DNA from: Sphingorhabdus sp. EL138
Lineage (GTDB): Bacteria > Pseudomonadota > Alphaproteobacteria > Sphingomonadales > Sphingomonadaceae
NCBI RefSeq assembly: GCF_945882965.1
Contig: NZ_CAMCWY010000013.1
Location: forward strand, 1-64,000
Reading direction: 5' to 3'
DNA length: 64,000 nucleotides
This document shows, one piece after another, positions 22,636 through 28,818 of this stretch (the first letter of the stretch is position 1; each line of letters starts with the position of its first letter). The position numbers were made by a program, and so were the translations under genes. Under the pieces are notes generated by a model. That model saw only the letters and a program-made list of their open reading frames with translations, searched no databases and was not told where the DNA came from.

Positions 22636-23501
22636 CTTTACATGGCCCCATCACCAACAGCTTTATCTCGCAACGCCTTCGGCTAAATTATGTCGACTGG
22701 GGCAACCCCGACGCGCCGCCTTTGCTCTTGGTCCATGGCGGCCGCGATCATGCGCGCAGCTGGGATTGGGTGGCGGAGGAATTGCGCCACGACTGGCATA
22801 TCATTGCGCCCGACCTCAGGGGCCATGGCGACAGCGCCTGGTCGCCCGATGGCAGCTATGAAATGTCGACCTTTGTCTATGACATGGCGCAATTGATCCA
22901 TCAGCTGAACCTTGCCCCCGTCAGCATCATCGCGCATTCAATGGGCGGCAATATCGCGACTCGCTATGCCGGCCTCTTCCCAGAAAATGTCCGCAAGATG
23001 GTCAACATCGAAGGACTGGGCCTGTCCCCAAAGATGCAGGCCGAGCGTGATGCCATCGGCATTCAAAACCGTTTTCGCCAATGGATCGAGGACAAACGCA
23101 ACGCCGCCGGTCGCACGCCTAAACGCTATCCCAATATCGAAGCCGCGTATGAACGGATGAAGACCGAAAACAGCTATTTAACCGACGAACAAGCGCGGCA
23201 TTTGACGGTGCATGGTATCAGCCGCAACGAGGATGGTAGCTGGAGCTGGAAGTTCGACAATTACCTCAATATCTGGGCGATCTTTGATATGCCGCGTGAG
23301 GATTTATTGGCCATTTGGCAGTCGATCACTTGCCCCATGTTGATGATGTATGGCGCAAATAGCTGGGCCTCAAACCCTGAAAAGGATGGCCGTATCGCGC
23401 ATTTCCCGACGGCAGAGGTCGTGGAATATGAAAATGCCGGCCATTGGTTGCACCATGACCAGTTCGACCGCTTCATGGCTGATGTCAGGGCATTCCTCTA
23501 A
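22632..23501 (+). CDS. Alpha/beta hydrolase
   Basis: A 289-residue alpha/beta-hydrolase-fold protein with an oxyanion LLLVHGG segment, APDLRGHGDS, nucleophile Ser103 in AHSMGGN, and a late His in AGHWLHHDQF. There is no signal peptide, so it is cytosolic. Its start overlaps the smc stop by 4 nt, so it is cotranscribed, but no functional link to chromosome segregation is evident. It could be an esterase, C-C hydrolase or haloalkane-type enzyme. It ends convergently with the ligase, overlapping by 4 bp. Confidence 0.85.
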   Translation: MTLHGPITNSFISQRLRLNYVDWGNPDAPPLLLVHGGRDHARSWDWVAEELRHDWHIIAPDLRGHGDSAWSPDGSYEMSTFVYDMAQLIHQLNLAPVSIIAHSMGGNIATRYAGLFPENVRKMVNIEGLGLSPKMQAERDAIGIQNRFRQWIEDKRNAAGRTPKRYPNIEAAYERMKTENSYLTDEQARHLTVHGISRNEDGSWSWKFDNYLNIWAIFDMPREDLLAIWQSITCPMLMMYGANSWASNPEKDGRIAHFPTAEVVEYENAGHWLHHDQFDRFMADVRAFL

Positions 23502-25066
23502 CCAATCATCGCGCGTAAGGCCGCAATAGTATCCGCCTCATCGGCTGGCTTGTCGCTGCGCAGGCGCGAGATGCGCGGGAAACGCATTGCAATGCCCGAT
23601 TTATGGCGTTTAGATTCGTGCACCGCGTCAAACGCGACCTCAAGGACCAGCGACTTTTCGACTTCACGCACTGGACCAAAGCGGGCAACCGTGTTGTCGC
23701 GCACGAAACGGTCAAGCCATTTCAGTTCCGCATCGCTGAACCCGGAATAAGCCTTGCCCACGGGCAACAAAGCGCCGTCGGGGGTCCAGCAGCCAAAGGT
23801 ATAATCCGAATAATAAGACGAGCGTTTCCCGCTCCCGCGCTGCGCATACATCATCACGCAATCGGCGATGAGCGGTTCGCGTTTCCATTTGTACCAGAGG
23901 CCAACCTTGCGGCCCGCCAGATAAGGCGAATCGCGCCGCTTTAACATGACGCCTTCAATCGCCGCCTCACGCGCACCGGAGCGCATTTCCGCAAGATGGT
24001 CGAAATCGCGCGCTTCGATGATCGTGGACAGATCGAACCGAACCGTGTCAAGTTTGGCAGCGAATAATTCCAGCCGTTCCCGCCGCGCACTCCAAGGCTG
24101 GCTGCGCACATCCTGCGTCCCGTCGAACAATATATCGTACAGGCGCACAAACACCGGATATTCCGCCTGCATCGCCGCGGTCACATTCTTGCGGCCCAAG
24201 CGTTGTTGCAGCGCGTTGAAGCTTGCCGCCTCCCCGCCTTGCACATCGCCGCGAACCAACAATTCGCCATCGACAACGCCGATGCCGTCAAAGGCAGCGG
24301 CGATTTCCGGAAACGCTGCGGTCACTTCATCGCCACCCCGGCTAAACAACCGCGTTTCGCCGCCCGTTGACGCAATCTGGATGCGGATGCCGTCCCATTT
24401 CCACTCAGCCGCAAATACGCTGAGCTGGACAGTGCAATCCTCCAATGGATGGGCAAGCATGAAGGGCCGGAAAAACGCGCTGTCCGCAGGATCGGGGCGT
24501 TCGGACTTGCCCTCGCCCCACGCAAACAGCTCCGCATAAGGCGGACGAAGCACGTGCCAGACCTCTTCAACATCGTCCACTGAAAGGCCAAAGGCCATCC
24601 CAAAGGCGGTTTTGGCCAACCGCGCCGATATGCCCACGCGCATGCCGCCTGTTGCCAGCTTCAGCAGCGCATAACGGCCATTGGCATCCAGCCTGTCCAT
24701 CAGTTCCGCCAGAACGATTGGCGCGCGCGCACGGCTTGCGCTGTTGAGCAGGTCAATGACTTCAGACACCGTCGGTGCCACGGCATCCGTTTTAACATCG
24801 GGCCACATCAGCGCGACGGTTTCCGCTGTGTCGCCGACATAATCGCGGCTCATGCGGAATAGCATAGGGTCAAAGCGTTCCTCGGCCATAATGCGAATCG
24901 CCGCCGATTTCACCGTTGCAATGCTGAGCGTGCCCGCGAGCGCCGCCAGCGCCCAACCGCGATCCGGATCAGGCATATCGCGCAGATATTCTGTGATCAA
25001 CCGGATCTTAAGGTCGCGTGATCGTGTGTAGATCAGCCCATCAATCAACGCGGCGAAAGCCTGCAT
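23498..25066 (-). CDS. ATP-dependent DNA ligase (LigB/LigC type)
   Basis: A 522-residue ligase. The N-terminal helical domain (1-200) precedes the nucleotidyltransferase core with motif I EWKWDGIRIQ (adenylated Lys223), motif III-like VDGELLVRG, motif IV EGVMLKRRDSPY, motif V LWYKWKREP, and a C-terminal OB domain. It seals nicks using ATP, unlike the main NAD-dependent LigA. It abuts the exonuclease gene (shared base 25066), a well-known bacterial repair pair. The helicase and phosphoesterase that often accompany it are not adjacent here. Confidence 0.94.
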   Translation of the reverse strand: MQAFAALIDGLIYTRSRDLKIRLITEYLRDMPDPDRGWALAALAGTLSIATVKSAAIRIMAEERFDPMLFRMSRDYVGDTAETVALMWPDVKTDAVAPTVSEVIDLLNSASRARAPIVLAELMDRLDANGRYALLKLATGGMRVGISARLAKTAFGMAFGLSVDDVEEVWHVLRPPYAELFAWGEGKSERPDPADSAFFRPFMLAHPLEDCTVQLSVFAAEWKWDGIRIQIASTGGETRLFSRGGDEVTAAFPEIAAAFDGIGVVDGELLVRGDVQGGEAASFNALQQRLGRKNVTAAMQAEYPVFVRLYDILFDGTQDVRSQPWSARRERLELFAAKLDTVRFDLSTIIEARDFDHLAEMRSGAREAAIEGVMLKRRDSPYLAGRKVGLWYKWKREPLIADCVMMYAQRGSGKRSSYYSDYTFGCWTPDGALLPVGKAYSGFSDAELKWLDRFVRDNTVARFGPVREVEKSLVLEVAFDAVHESKRHKSGIAMRFPRISRLRSDKPADEADTIAALRAMIG

Positions 25067-26073
25067 CAGCTCTCATCCTCGTCTTCACGGCCAACAAGAT
25101 CGAGCGCGCGCGCTTTCAACTGATGGAGCTCACACCACCGACCAAGCGCGTCAGTGCGGCCATGGGTAATCCATGTTTCTGTGGGCCGAAGCTCCAACAA
25201 AGTTTCGGTCAGCTCGTTCCAATCTGCATGGTCGGAAATGACCAAAGGCAGTTCAACATTGCGTTGTCGCGCCCGTTGCCGCACCCGCATCCATCCCGAT
25301 GCCATGGCGGTTATCGGGTCGGGCAGACGCTGCGCCCAGCGGTCATTCATCGCCGATGGCGGGGCAATGACAATCGCGCCTTTCATCTCTGCCTTGGCAA
25401 GTCCCGTTGCCAGTATGAGATCGCCCAAGGGAACATCATGCGCCGCATATAGATCACACATTTTCTGCATCGCGCCGTGGATATAAACTGGCGCGTCATA
25501 GCCAGCGCGCCGTAGCTCTGCGATCACCCGCTGCGCCTTGCCCAGCGCATAGGCCCCTATCAATATGCACCCATCGATATTGGCCCCGCGCGCGGCGAGC
25601 AATTTGGCAATCTCAACCTCAATCGGCGGATGCGTGAACACGGGCAAGCCAAAGGTCGCTTCGGTTATCAGGATATCGCAAGCCACAGCTTCAAACGGCG
25701 CGCAGGTCGGGTCGAACCGCCGTTTATAGTCGCCTGTCACCACCACGCGCTCGCCTGCATATTCTAACAGGATCTGCGCCGACCCCAGAACATGCCCGGC
25801 GGGGTGAAAGCTGATCTTCACACCATTTGCTTCAAACCCGTCGCCATAGGGCGTGGGCGTGCCTGTTTCGGTGCCATAACGCAGCGCCATGATAGCCAGC
25901 GTCTCTGGCGTTGCCCAGACGGCTCCATGCCCACTGCGCGCATGGTCGGCATGGCCGTGCGTCACCAAAGCGCGTTCGGCGGGGCGCGACGGGTCAATCC
26001 ACATGTCCGCTGGCTTGACATAGATGCCATGCGCCTGAGGCTCTATCCAATGTTGGGCAAGGGTTTGCGCGAT
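25066..26073 (-). CDS. Ligase-associated DNA exonuclease (metallo-beta-lactamase fold)
   Basis: The metal motif THGHADHA and a beta-CASP-like half resemble mRNA 3'-end-processing nucleases; the family acts in DNA repair with the neighbouring ligase. The first ATG (26004) would remove a conserved N-terminal stretch: 23 in-frame codons upstream read WIEPQAHGIYVKPAD, matching family N-termini. No ATG, GTG or TTG lies between the in-frame stop and 26004. An ATC at 26073 sits 8 nt after AAAGGA, so it is proposed as a rare start, giving about 335 residues. Confidence 0.8.
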   Translation of the reverse strand: MAQTLAQHWIEPQAHGIYVKPADMWIDPSRPAERALVTHGHADHARSGHGAVWATPETLAIMALRYGTETGTPTPYGDGFEANGVKISFHPAGHVLGSAQILLEYAGERVVVTGDYKRRFDPTCAPFEAVACDILITEATFGLPVFTHPPIEVEIAKLLAARGANIDGCILIGAYALGKAQRVIAELRRAGYDAPVYIHGAMQKMCDLYAAHDVPLGDLILATGLAKAEMKGAIVIAPPSAMNDRWAQRLPDPITAMASGWMRVRQRARQRNVELPLVISDHADWNELTETLLELRPTETWITHGRTDALGRWCELHQLKARALDLVGREDEDES

Positions 26074-26174
26074 AGTGACGGTCCTTTTCTAACGCCAGAT
26101 ATGGGGCGCAGTGGGGCCGATGTAAACCAATTGCACCGAATGATCTGCATTGTGCATAGACATTGCGAGATTTA

Positions 26175-26189
26175 GAACATAAATAGAAC
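26175..26189 (+). promoter_or_regulatory. LexA (SOS) box, alphaproteobacterial type
   Basis: GAAC-N7-GAAC with an AT-only spacer (ATAAATA) ends 2 bp before the ATG of the radical SAM gene. Alphaproteobacterial LexA binds the direct repeat GTTC-N7-GTTC, which this is on the other strand. The position implies damage-inducible control of the downstream radical SAM/UdgX operon and perhaps of the divergent exonuclease/ligase operon. Confidence 0.75.
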
Positions 26190-26191
26190 AA

Positions 26192-27433
26192 ATGTCACAG
26201 ATTCAGATATCCGAAAAGCTGGCCATTCTTGCCGATGCGGCGAAATATGATGCGTCCTGCGCGTCATCCGGCACATCGAAACGATCAAGCAACAAATCGG
26301 GCGGGATTGGTTCGACCGAGGGCATGGGTATTTGCCATGCTTATGCCCCCGATGGTCGGTGCATATCGCTGTTAAAAATTCTGCTGACCAATAGCTGCAT
26401 TTTCGACTGCCATTATTGCATCAACCGTAAAAGCTCCAACGTCCGCCGCGCGCGTTTCACGCCTAAGGAGGTGGTTGATCTCACGCTCAATTTCTACAAA
26501 CGCAATTATATTGAGGGGCTGTTTCTGTCATCAGGTATCATCAAAAGCTCCAATTACACGATGGAGCAAATTGTTGAGGTCGCGCGTAGCTTGCGTGAAG
26601 ACCATGATTTTCGGGGGTATATCCACCTAAAGACGATCCCCGATGCAGACCCAGAATTGCTTGAGGCTGCGGGCCGACATGCCGACCGATTGTCCATCAA
26701 TGTCGAATTGCCCACGCGCGCTGGCTTGCAAAAGCTGGCGCCCGAAAAATCGGAAGAGCGGATTGAAGGCGCGATGGGCGGCCTTAAAGAGGCCATTCTC
26801 GATGGGCGCGATGCGAAGAAGAAATATCGCAGCGCACCAAATTTCGCGCCTGCGGGACAATCGACACAAATGATTGTTGGTGCCGACACCGCAACAGACA
26901 GCGACATCGTGCGCCGCGCCAATGGGTTATATGATCGCTTTGGCCTTCGCCGCGTCTATTATTCGGCGTTCAGCCCCATTCCAGACGCAAGCGCGGTTTT
27001 GCCGCTGCAACGCCCGCCGTTAATGCGCGAACATCGCCTGTATCAGTCCGACTGGCTGATGCGTTTTTATGGCTTTGCCCCGCACGAGGTGATCGACGCG
27101 GCAGAGGCCGATGGCAATTTGCCCTTGGACATTGATCCTAAGCTTGCATGGGCATTGAAGCATCGCGCCCAATTTCCGGTAGATGTGAATGCTGCGCCAA
27201 AGGCACTGCTGTGGCGTGTGCCCGGGCTTGGCACCAAAGCCGTGGACGCAATCGTTAAGGCGCGGCGTTGGCGGCGGCTGCGGCTGGAGGATGTGGGCAG
27301 ACTTACCGTGTCGATTACTAAGATCCGCCCGTTCATCACCGCCGAAGGGTGGAGCCCCGGCGCGCTGACCGATATGGAACATTTGCGCGCATCGGTTGCG
27401 CCCAAGGTGAATCAGTTGGAACTGTTTGCGTGA
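26192..27433 (+). CDS. Putative DNA modification/repair radical SAM protein
   Basis: A 413-residue radical SAM enzyme with cluster cysteines Cys69, Cys73 and Cys76 (CIFDCHYC), a TIM-barrel-like core and a C-terminal helix-hairpin-helix DNA-binding segment (WRVPGLGTKAVDAIVKAR). This composition matches the family always found beside the DUF4130/UdgX-type gene and thought to act on DNA, though its reaction is unknown. The GTGA overlap with the next gene shows coupling. A LexA box lies just upstream; no ribosome binding site is visible, so it may be leaderless. Confidence 0.88.
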   Translation: MSQIQISEKLAILADAAKYDASCASSGTSKRSSNKSGGIGSTEGMGICHAYAPDGRCISLLKILLTNSCIFDCHYCINRKSSNVRRARFTPKEVVDLTLNFYKRNYIEGLFLSSGIIKSSNYTMEQIVEVARSLREDHDFRGYIHLKTIPDADPELLEAAGRHADRLSINVELPTRAGLQKLAPEKSEERIEGAMGGLKEAILDGRDAKKKYRSAPNFAPAGQSTQMIVGADTATDSDIVRRANGLYDRFGLRRVYYSAFSPIPDASAVLPLQRPPLMREHRLYQSDWLMRFYGFAPHEVIDAAEADGNLPLDIDPKLAWALKHRAQFPVDVNAAPKALLWRVPGLGTKAVDAIVKARRWRRLRLEDVGRLTVSITKIRPFITAEGWSPGALTDMEHLRASVAPKVNQLELFA

Positions 27434-28818
27434 TCACCGCGCGGTTGGACAGCGAAGATGACTTTGACGGGTGGCGTGCGCAATGTCGCGGCCTACTGCG
27501 TCTGGGTGCAAAGCCAGCCGATGTGGTGTGGCAGGTGGGCGCTCAGCGCACCGACCTGTTCTCCAATCCGGACAGCAAGATTGCGGCCGCACCCATTGCT
27601 GTGCCCAAGGGCTTTGCCGAACTATCGCGATCCGTCATCTGCCATAATGATCCGGCGCGTTTTGGGCTTTTGTTTCAATTGCTGATCGACCTAAAGGCTG
27701 GACGGCGGCATATGGGCGACCGGGCTGACCCGTTGTTGCGCAAGCTTGATATCATGGCAAAAACCGTCCGGCGCGACATTCACAAAATGCGCGCTTTCGT
27801 CCGTTTTCGGCGGATCGAGGAAGAGGGCGACGAACATTTTATCGCGTGGTTTGAGCCTGAACATCATATCGTCCGCGCCAACGCGTCCTTCTTCATCCGC
27901 CGTTTTGGGGGCATGCGCTGGTCCATACTGACGCCTGCACTTTCAATCCATTGGGACAAGAACATATTGTTGGAAGGACCAGCCGCGCGCAAGGAAGACG
28001 CGCCGTCCCAAGACGCAATTGAGGCGCAGTGGAAGACCTATTACGGGTCAACCTTCAACCCCGCCCGCCTAAAGGTGAAGGCGATGTTGAAGGAGATGCC
28101 CAAGAAATACTGGCACAATATGCCCGAGACCGCTTTGATCTCTGAACTCATCCAGTCTGCACGAAACCGCGAACTGGCGATGATTGAGAAAGAGATTGCA
28201 GCGTCCGTCGCCGATACATTGGCGACGTTACAGGCCGAAGCCGGACGCTGCCGCCGTTGCCCTTTGTTTGGGCCAGCCACGCAGATTGTCTTTGGCGAAG
28301 GGCCAGAGCGCGCCAGGCTGATGTTCGTGGGTGAACAGCCTGGCGACCAAGAGGATATGCAGGGGCGACCCTTTGTGGGGCCTGCGGGACAGATATTCGA
28401 TGCGGCCTTGGCCCAAGCTGGGCTGGACCGCGCGCAAGCCTATGTCACCAACGCCGTCAAACATTTCAAGTTCAAGCCAGAGGGCAAGCGACGCATCCAC
28501 GAACGGCCGAATATCAGCGAAGTGAACCACTGCCGATGGTGGTTGAAACGCGAGATTGAGATATTGCAGCCCGACCTGATCATTGCCTTGGGCGCGACGG
28601 CGGCACGCAGTCTCACGGGGCGCAATGTCGCGATTACCAAAAGCCGGGGCAGCATATTGGAAAGCGAGGAAGGCGTGCCTGTTTTGGTCACCATCCACCC
28701 AAGCTACCTGCTGCGCCTGCCCGATGCCGAAATGGCCGCGCAGGAACGGCGCAACTTCGTCGCAGACCTCATGCAAGCGCGCGACCACATTGAAGCGCTT
28801 CAAATGGCGGCGACGTAA
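27430..28818 (+). CDS. DUF4130-UdgX fusion, uracil-DNA binding protein
   Basis: A 462-residue two-domain protein from GTG 27430. The N-terminal half (about 1-250) is the DUF4130-type DNA-metabolism domain. The C-terminal half (about 265-455) is a family-4-like uracil-DNA glycosylase of the UdgX class: Cys274/Cys277, GEQPG (301-305), KRRIHERP with His357 at the position that forms a covalent bond to the abasic DNA, and HPS (423-425). It should excise uracil and stay crosslinked. It ends convergently inside the alpha-galactosidase 3' end. Confidence 0.9.
   Translation: MITARLDSEDDFDGWRAQCRGLLRLGAKPADVVWQVGAQRTDLFSNPDSKIAAAPIAVPKGFAELSRSVICHNDPARFGLLFQLLIDLKAGRRHMGDRADPLLRKLDIMAKTVRRDIHKMRAFVRFRRIEEEGDEHFIAWFEPEHHIVRANASFFIRRFGGMRWSILTPALSIHWDKNILLEGPAARKEDAPSQDAIEAQWKTYYGSTFNPARLKVKAMLKEMPKKYWHNMPETALISELIQSARNRELAMIEKEIAASVADTLATLQAEAGRCRRCPLFGPATQIVFGEGPERARLMFVGEQPGDQEDMQGRPFVGPAGQIFDAALAQAGLDRAQAYVTNAVKHFKFKPEGKRRIHERPNISEVNHCRWWLKREIEILQPDLIIALGATAARSLTGRNVAITKSRGSILESEEGVPVLVTIHPSYLLRLPDAEMAAQERRNFVADLMQARDHIEALQMAAT

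Follow-up and report, generated by a model that had tools for sequence, protein, structure and literature searches.

A putative LexA-repressed, clamp-tethered radical SAM/DUF4130-UdgX repair operon in Sphingorhabdus sp. EL138

We analyzed a 64-kb stretch of DNA from Sphingorhabdus sp. EL138 (contig NZ_CAMCWY010000013.1); this whole stretch is called the window, and all coordinates are positions in it. The window carries a LexA-type box directly in front of a radical S-adenosylmethionine (SAM) gene, which is overlapped at its end by a gene for a DUF4130-UdgX fusion protein. We propose that these two genes form a LexA-repressed DNA repair operon whose radical SAM enzyme is tethered to the sliding clamp, a model to which we assign a probability of about 0.7. 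The control region and the two genes are as follows:

26157..26162, + strand: -35-like hexamer TAGACA; the corresponding family columns -36 to -31 are conserved, and only the 17-nt spacing fits TTGACA
26175..26189, + strand: LexA box GAACATAAATAGAAC, reading GTTC-N7-GTTC on the - strand; recognized from the sequence and conserved in relatives
26180..26185, + strand: -10-like hexamer TAAATA, lying within the LexA box; the relatives' consensus is TATAAA/G
26192..27433, + strand: radical SAM protein of family TIGR03916 (rSAM_link_UDG), 413 aa; open reading frame (ORF) and profile match
27430..28818, + strand: DUF4130 (TIGR03915)-UdgX (TIGR03914) fusion, read from an in-frame GTG at 27430-27432

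An earlier note on this DNA had placed GAAC-N7-GAAC two bases before the radical SAM start, and this was borne out: the sequence over box and start is TAGACATTGCGAGATTTAGAACATAAATAGAACAAATGTCACAG, with only AA between the end of the box and the ATG at 26192. The note's pairing of the radical SAM gene with a DUF4130-UdgX fusion also held. The radical SAM ORF stops with TGA at 27431-27433, and the GTG start of the fusion lies on this stop as GTGA, so that translation of the two is presumably coupled. Against NCBIfam/Pfam profiles, the radical SAM protein scored 572.5 bits with TIGR03916 (curated cut-off 343.5) and the UdgX part scored 312 bits with TIGR03914 (cut-off 189.95), while TIGR03915/DUF4130 likewise exceeded its curated cut-off. 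Both marks of TIGR03916 membership, the CxxxCxxC motif and an adjoining TIGR03915 gene, are present. We take this family to be the same as COG4277.

The number of boxes carried no information. The window holds one exact box against a mean of 1.26 expected from shuffles, and the genome holds 33 + 18 = 51 against 65 + 60 = 125 for a reversed control pattern; box counts were therefore rejected as evidence, and the box string alone is weak evidence. It is conservation, not count, that indicates more than chance. Of 119 genomes belonging to the same GTDB family, 83 had TIGR03916 above cut-off, and all 83 operons were inspected. The exact box was present in 81 of them, 77 times in sense orientation just before the start and four times reversed (GTTC-N7-GTTC) slightly further upstream (L106, L111, L125 and L134); the remaining two, L095 and L112, have a one-mismatch box at the same place. 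The 120 bp before the conserved N-terminus contained 81 boxes in 9,960 bp, compared with 10 in 433,671 bp for the rest of the 83 loci, a 353-fold difference in density. Among class relatives outside the family (all 57 operons above cut-off from two draws, 300 bp upstream of the conserved N-terminus), the exact box occurred in 56, of which 43 were sense and 13 reversed; only L149 had none. Loss of the box in close relatives, which the earlier note had set beforehand as a refutation, was thus not seen. In two loci, L126 (early stop) and L137 (frameshift), the radical SAM gene is broken and the LexA box intact.

The same motif stands before both lexA and recA in the organism's own genome; the earlier note had proposed comparison with these promoters as a check. 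We inspected 3 kb around every one of the 50 remaining sites, or less where a contig ended, and distances were measured to the first start codon of each ORF by crude gene calling. Two overlapping boxes lie 20 and 31 bp upstream of lexA, and one lies 56 bp upstream of recA; others precede uvrA (10 bp), radA (15 bp), ruvA (43 bp) and rmuC (29 bp), and another marks the start of a uvrD/pcrA-type helicase ORF. By this crude calling 29 of the 50 sites, the helicase site counted, fall inside ORFs, and these are probably mostly chance occurrences. In the family at large, all eight recA loci examined carry the box (30 recA loci were taken from 99 genomes). The own-genome scan also found two mmcB-like genes with boxes 12 and 9 bp upstream (L039:1501-1515 and L049:1501-1515), and a LexA-type box 92 bp before nrdA, the ribonucleotide reductase alpha gene (L014:1501-1515).

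Outside the class the box changes its type. We read 32 of 35 operons from the rest of the phylum (three of one genus were dropped) and found the alphaproteobacterial box in none of them; 25 instead have CTGT-N8-ACAG, presumably the gammaproteobacterial LexA site, and two of the other seven, L220 and L234, have it with one mismatch. The alphaproteobacterial box inside the class and CTGT-N8-ACAG outside it indicate that the site follows the LexA type of the host. When lexA was sought in 20 genomes, it was above cut-off in all 12 with an exact CTGT box. Of the eight without an exact box, three lacked lexA above cut-off and had no box at all (L149, L147 and L205); the other five were the two one-mismatch cases and three genomes of one family. 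Plasmid records, eight of which were picked from the 60 listed out of 158, gave the alphaproteobacterial box in Novosphingobium, Paracoccus, Phaeobacter and Azospirillum, the Novosphingobium box lying 109 bp before the matched stretch, where no gene is annotated. A Caballeronia plasmid record carries CTGTATAAATATACAG, and in the clostridial Pusillibacter a small ORF and the operon are preceded by two GAAC-N4-GTTC sites. The radical SAM/DUF4130 pair is widespread, and the tracking of the box from lineage to lineage makes its membership in the SOS response very likely by comparison.

Several observations weigh against LexA control as a general rule. A genome of the same genus, G064, has no radical SAM gene; of 22 recA loci from the order's other families, only four had the recA box; and some intergenic boxes of the own genome stand ahead of genes not known to act in repair (L012, L023, L043 and L046). 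The three genomes of one family mentioned above have lexA above cut-off and an operon without any box tried. In one of them, the only one in which the start was found, lexA is preceded by TTAGTAGTAATACTACTAA, and the TTAG-N11-CTAA site is absent at the operon in all three, so that the operon may there have left the LexA regulon. The Fusobacterium and Gemmatirosa records likewise showed no motif tried. In a set of 80 loci from named genomes (L265-L344; 71 Bacteroidota by title), GAAC-N7-GAAC occurred in four, all Chryseobacterium, and CTGT-N8-ACAG in one, with Bacteroidota LexA motifs not among the patterns scanned. SOS control of the operon is thus not universal. For the operon in the window, the comparison with family, class and the own lexA and recA genes argues that it is almost certainly under LexA control, and the SOS membership suggested by the earlier note is supported.

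The SOS link of the gene pair is not new, because the available text of PMC8565304 reports LexA motifs before a COG1573-COG4277 pair in Bacteroidota and states that earlier work (its reference 7 and, on Caulobacter, its reference 65) had reported SOS control of such a uracil-glycosylase system in Verrucomicrobia and Alphaproteobacteria. That pair, of the radical SAM/uracil-glycosylase type, stands under the host's LexA motif as here; unlike in that report, as far as its available text goes, the box found here is of the alphaproteobacterial kind, fused to a -10 element and adjoining the start codon. The parts seen of PMC3765255 describe DUF4130 as an enzyme with a predicted role related to mutagenesis, linked with radical SAM proteins and uracil glycosylases, and those of PMC13384398 and PMC6473078 name neither gene of the pair. 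Term searches in the text of PMC10776899 and PMC12700426 gave no match. No paper naming UdgX and LexA together was found in the open-licence literature, and nothing in print on the clamp tail, the leaderless geometry or the RecJ-like fold described below turned up there either.

We then considered how the box is placed in the promoter. Its end lies exactly two bases before the start codon in 65 of the 83 family operons, and the two-base gap is common to 21 further operons of the class. When the 65 family promoters were aligned on the start, the conserved columns were both GAAC halves with A-T-A-T-A between them and C-T-n-G-n-C at -36 to -31 (T in 61/65, G in 57/65), with a weaker A at -18 and -2. 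If +1 is placed on the A of the start codon, the hexamer in the box falls at -12 to -7 and the upstream hexamer at -35 to -30. TTGACA was matched at four or more positions with a 17-nt spacer in 40 of the 65 promoters, compared with at most 5 for any other spacer from 10 to 25. With this textbook -35/17 nt/-10 geometry, transcription would begin on the start codon and give a leaderless mRNA. The earlier note had seen no ribosome binding site before the ATG and had thought a leaderless transcript possible; by eye no strong site is visible, and the conserved geometry lends the idea support, making a leaderless start in the window probable. Such a promoter, fused to a repressor site, would serve as a simple SOS reporter in sphingomonads.

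Alternatively, an upstream promoter could supply a leader, and translation would start in the ordinary way from a Shine-Dalgarno site. An AGGA, GGAG or GAGG string that could serve as a ribosome site occurs in the last 20 nt of 20 of the 65 promoters, in many cases within the box; such a site before the start is thus not conserved, yet not absent everywhere. Moreover, the start codon lies more than 4 nt from the sense box in 8 family and 16 class operons, some of them with an evident Shine-Dalgarno sequence. The window's own -10 (TAAATA) is weak, and a consensus promoter scanner reported no promoter there. All of this weakens the case for a leaderless start. However, there is no Shine-Dalgarno sequence near the ATG in the window, and the conserved -35/-10 pair would fix +1 at the ATG, so we consider a Shine-Dalgarno start unlikely.

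The proposed link to the sliding clamp comes from the C-terminus of the radical SAM protein, which reads ...VNQLELFA. Its two motifs are:

26396..26419, + strand: CxxxCxxC cluster motif CIFDCHYC, residues 69-76; the three Cys are invariant in 43 homologues
27413..27427, + strand: sliding-clamp-type motif QLELF, residues 408-412; from the tail comparison of homologues

We compared the tails of 254 homologues (83 from the family, 2 further family members, 57 from the class, 32 from the phylum and 80 from named genomes) with 1,386 control C-termini, which were other ORFs of at least 200 aa in the same 254 loci, many of them not real genes. The strict form, Q[LMF][ESDNATQ]L[FLW], was found in 206 of the 254 radical SAM C-termini and in none of the controls. 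The loose form, in which Qxx[LMI] precedes a hydrophobic residue directly or with one residue between, is less specific and admits variants such as QASLF and QGSLF; it occurred in 243 of 254, compared with 86 of 1,386 controls in their last 30 residues. The exceptions were QLGFGF in nine proteins and, as the last two, the early-stop L126 and the frameshifted L137; the portion of L126 behind its early stop likewise terminates in QLELF. Among 225 partner C-termini (DUF4130 or UdgX) the strict form was absent and the loose form occurred in 37. Across the 43 aligned sequences Gln408 never varies and Leu411 reaches at least 90% conservation, a level that no column from 382 to 407 attains. Tails of the same kind in Pusillibacter (QLSLFDSA), Fusobacterium (RQLKLFNLQ) and Gemmatirosa (QLSLWDD near the end) make the tail common to five phyla.

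In the available text of the two sources, the clamp-binding consensus is QL[S/D]LF (PMC3716654) and, at C-termini, QLxLF (PMC4549789). The same tail motif ends E. coli Pol II (QLGLF), UmuC (QLNLF) and transposases. None of the clamp clients named in the parts seen of PMC3716654 and PMC4549789 is a radical SAM enzyme; a search of the open-licence literature gave no paper combining sliding clamp, radical SAM and clamp-binding motif. These comparisons suggest that the radical SAM enzyme is likely tethered to the clamp, and the conserved tail points to the replication fork or clamp-bound gap repair as its place of action.

Some points count against such a tether. QLELF carries Glu in place of the Ser or Asp of the classic consensus, short tails can also come about in other ways, and the predicted local distance difference test (pLDDT) score of the tail is low, which is expected for a flexible peptide and is no proof. 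The tail could instead contact a partner protein or the enzyme's own core, given that short motifs recur and that the loose form is also seen in the 86 control C-termini. Nevertheless, it sits at or near the very end behind a variable stretch with its Q and L kept, and its third position varies as it does in published clamp peptides (QLSLF, QLDLF, QLNLF and QLGLF), which makes a non-clamp role rather improbable.

The structural model of the radical SAM protein (mean pLDDT 86.5) shows a HydE/BioB/lipoyl-synthase-like barrel. The modelled barrel matched these enzymes with Z of about 16 over 212-231 residues, and Foldseek gave E 7.2e-8 to HydE. Unlike them, the protein has an extra helix-hairpin-helix-like C-terminal part (Pfam HHH_3, below cut-off) and the clamp-type tail. 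Spore photoproduct lyase (SplB) was not among the 50 fold matches listed, which excludes nothing.

We also investigated which partners accompany the radical SAM gene, using flanks of 1.5 to about 3 kb, with some loci ending early. DUF4130 was present in 79 of the 83 family loci, in all 57 class and all 32 phylum loci, and in 78 of the 80 loci from named genomes. UdgX accompanied DUF4130 in 75/83, 49/57, 14/32 and 0/80, respectively. Based on these counts, the core is the radical SAM protein with DUF4130, and UdgX is an add-on. The 80 named-genome loci, mostly Bacteroidota, have no UdgX within up to 3 kb on each side. As a lead, the partner called 'UDG' (COG1573) in Bacteroidota may be DUF4130 alone.

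In the window, the UdgX part has the following features:

28165..28776, + strand: UdgX domain; profile match
28330..28344, + strand: UdgX motif A GEQPG; motif as in the available text of PMC10359453
28486..28500, + strand: UdgX R-loop KRRIH, whose crosslink-forming histidine is encoded at 28498-28500; motif as in the available text of PMC10359453
28696..28716, + strand: UdgX motif B HPSYLLR; sequence and motif comparison

The roles of the GEQPG and KRRIH residues are taken from the same portion of PMC10359453. With motif A and the crosslink histidine of the R-loop in place, the earlier note's description of a glycosylase that crosslinks itself to DNA is plausible for this protein. HPSYLLR has Tyr in the fourth place of the motif B pattern HPS(S/A)(L/V)(L/V)R; among the 140 loci with a UdgX match it is the most frequent form, seen in 96 of them, our own counted. 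Across these 140 loci GEQPG was found in 131 and an R-loop of the form [KR][RK]R-x-H in 110; several loci without that pattern have the histidine in a different setting, and one carries Asn in its place. M. smegmatis UdgX (PDB 6AJO) shares GEQPG, KRRIH and HPS..LR with it (phmmer E 8.4e-53), but the UdgX in the window follows DUF4130 within a fusion and shares its operon with a radical SAM gene.

The DUF4130 model (mean pLDDT 87.3) gave top fold matches that were mostly RecJ, Cdc45, PAP phosphatase and other members of the DHH superfamily. The best was PAP phosphatase 8a8k (Z 7.9), and RecJ 2zxo, of the DHH-DHHA1 superfamily with Cdc45, matched at Z 7.3 with a root-mean-square deviation of 4.0 over 174 aligned residues. 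A Z under 8 may reflect only a common arrangement, and there is no sequence match to RecJ/Cdc45. Foldseek with this model found no match at E 0.001 or better, and the DUF4130 profile had a single match among solved structures, at E 0.29. The model thus hints weakly at a RecJ/Cdc45-like fold, which we treat as a lead. In five loci a hemerythrin-like gene lies between the radical SAM and DUF4130 genes (L076:870-1349, L078:914-1393, L088:1724-2206, L092:1722-2201 and L115:1723-2196). These were the five searched among 16 family members with a gap of more than 200 bp between the two genes, and the gene is PF01814 in both loci scanned (L088 and L115). Its product, a protein that binds oxygen or iron, is placed next to an enzyme of an oxygen-sensitive type.

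What the system does to DNA can be read in different ways. It might modify bases rather than repair damage: modification is common among radical SAM enzymes, the NCBIfam name 'DNA modification/repair' permits this reading, and the accessible part of PMC3765255 says that DUF4130, radical SAM proteins and uracil glycosylases 'might modify thymines'. Constitutive modification, however, needs no LexA, and LexA-type control was found in most proteobacterial operons examined; a modification system is accordingly quite improbable, and we favor DNA repair with good confidence. Alternatively, the operon could be SOS-controlled with the radical SAM enzyme serving to undo UdgX-DNA crosslinks, a role to which the gene order, the fusion and the frequent UdgX in family and class operons lend themselves. 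This role is disfavored by the loci that have the radical SAM gene and DUF4130 without UdgX in the flanks (about 2-3 kb downstream, with the rest of these genomes unsearched), namely 18 of 32 in the phylum and 78 of 80 in the named genomes, and it is very unlikely. That GAAC-N7-GAAC is merely a conserved promoter and no LexA site is hardly credible: the -10 does lie inside it and promoters are conserved as well, but both GAAC halves are kept while parts of N7 vary, the box is reversed in 4 family and 13 class operons, CTGT-N8-ACAG replaces it outside the class, and lexA and recA carry it.

Under the LexA-repressed, clamp-tethered repair model, LexA would bind GAAC-N7-GAAC, cover the -10 of a sigma-70-type promoter before the start codon and block it. 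RecA-activated self-cleavage of LexA would free the site, and a leaderless mRNA would start from the A of the ATG, giving the radical SAM enzyme and DUF4130-UdgX by presumably coupled translation. The radical SAM enzyme would dock on DnaN through its QLELF tail, bringing its chemistry to replicating or gap-filled DNA. DUF4130, the near-constant partner, would probably handle or bind DNA, and UdgX, the optional module, would take uracil sites and cap them covalently. For the broader generalization, in which TIGR03916 is a clamp-wired radical SAM DNA enzyme across bacteria and DUF4130 its degenerate RecJ/Cdc45-like DNA-handling partner, SOS-induced and with UdgX optional, we would give even odds. 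If it holds, the system would be a radical repair machine induced by the SOS response and tethered to the replisome, a type that we did not find described in the literature searched.

Next to the operon lies a divergent pair at 23498-26100, a ligase-associated exonuclease (TIGR04122) and a cisplatin-response ATP-dependent ligase (TIGR04120), and one box could here touch both divergent genes. From the first ATG (26004) the exonuclease profile match begins at profile position 16; upstream of this ATG the frame continues for 28 codons that include no ATG, GTG or TTG, so a rare start codon is possible. We rejected the pair as a general part of the operon unit, as the exonuclease was found in 2 of the 83 family loci, our own included, within 1.5-2.5 kb upstream plus the downstream flank. 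Finally, two 240-kb Acinetobacter phage records (CAKLQH020000003.1 and CAKLQF020000004.1) carry a TIGR03916 radical SAM gene. Viral contigs with a TIGR03916-type locus numbered two, and phage records ten, eight of them without annotation.

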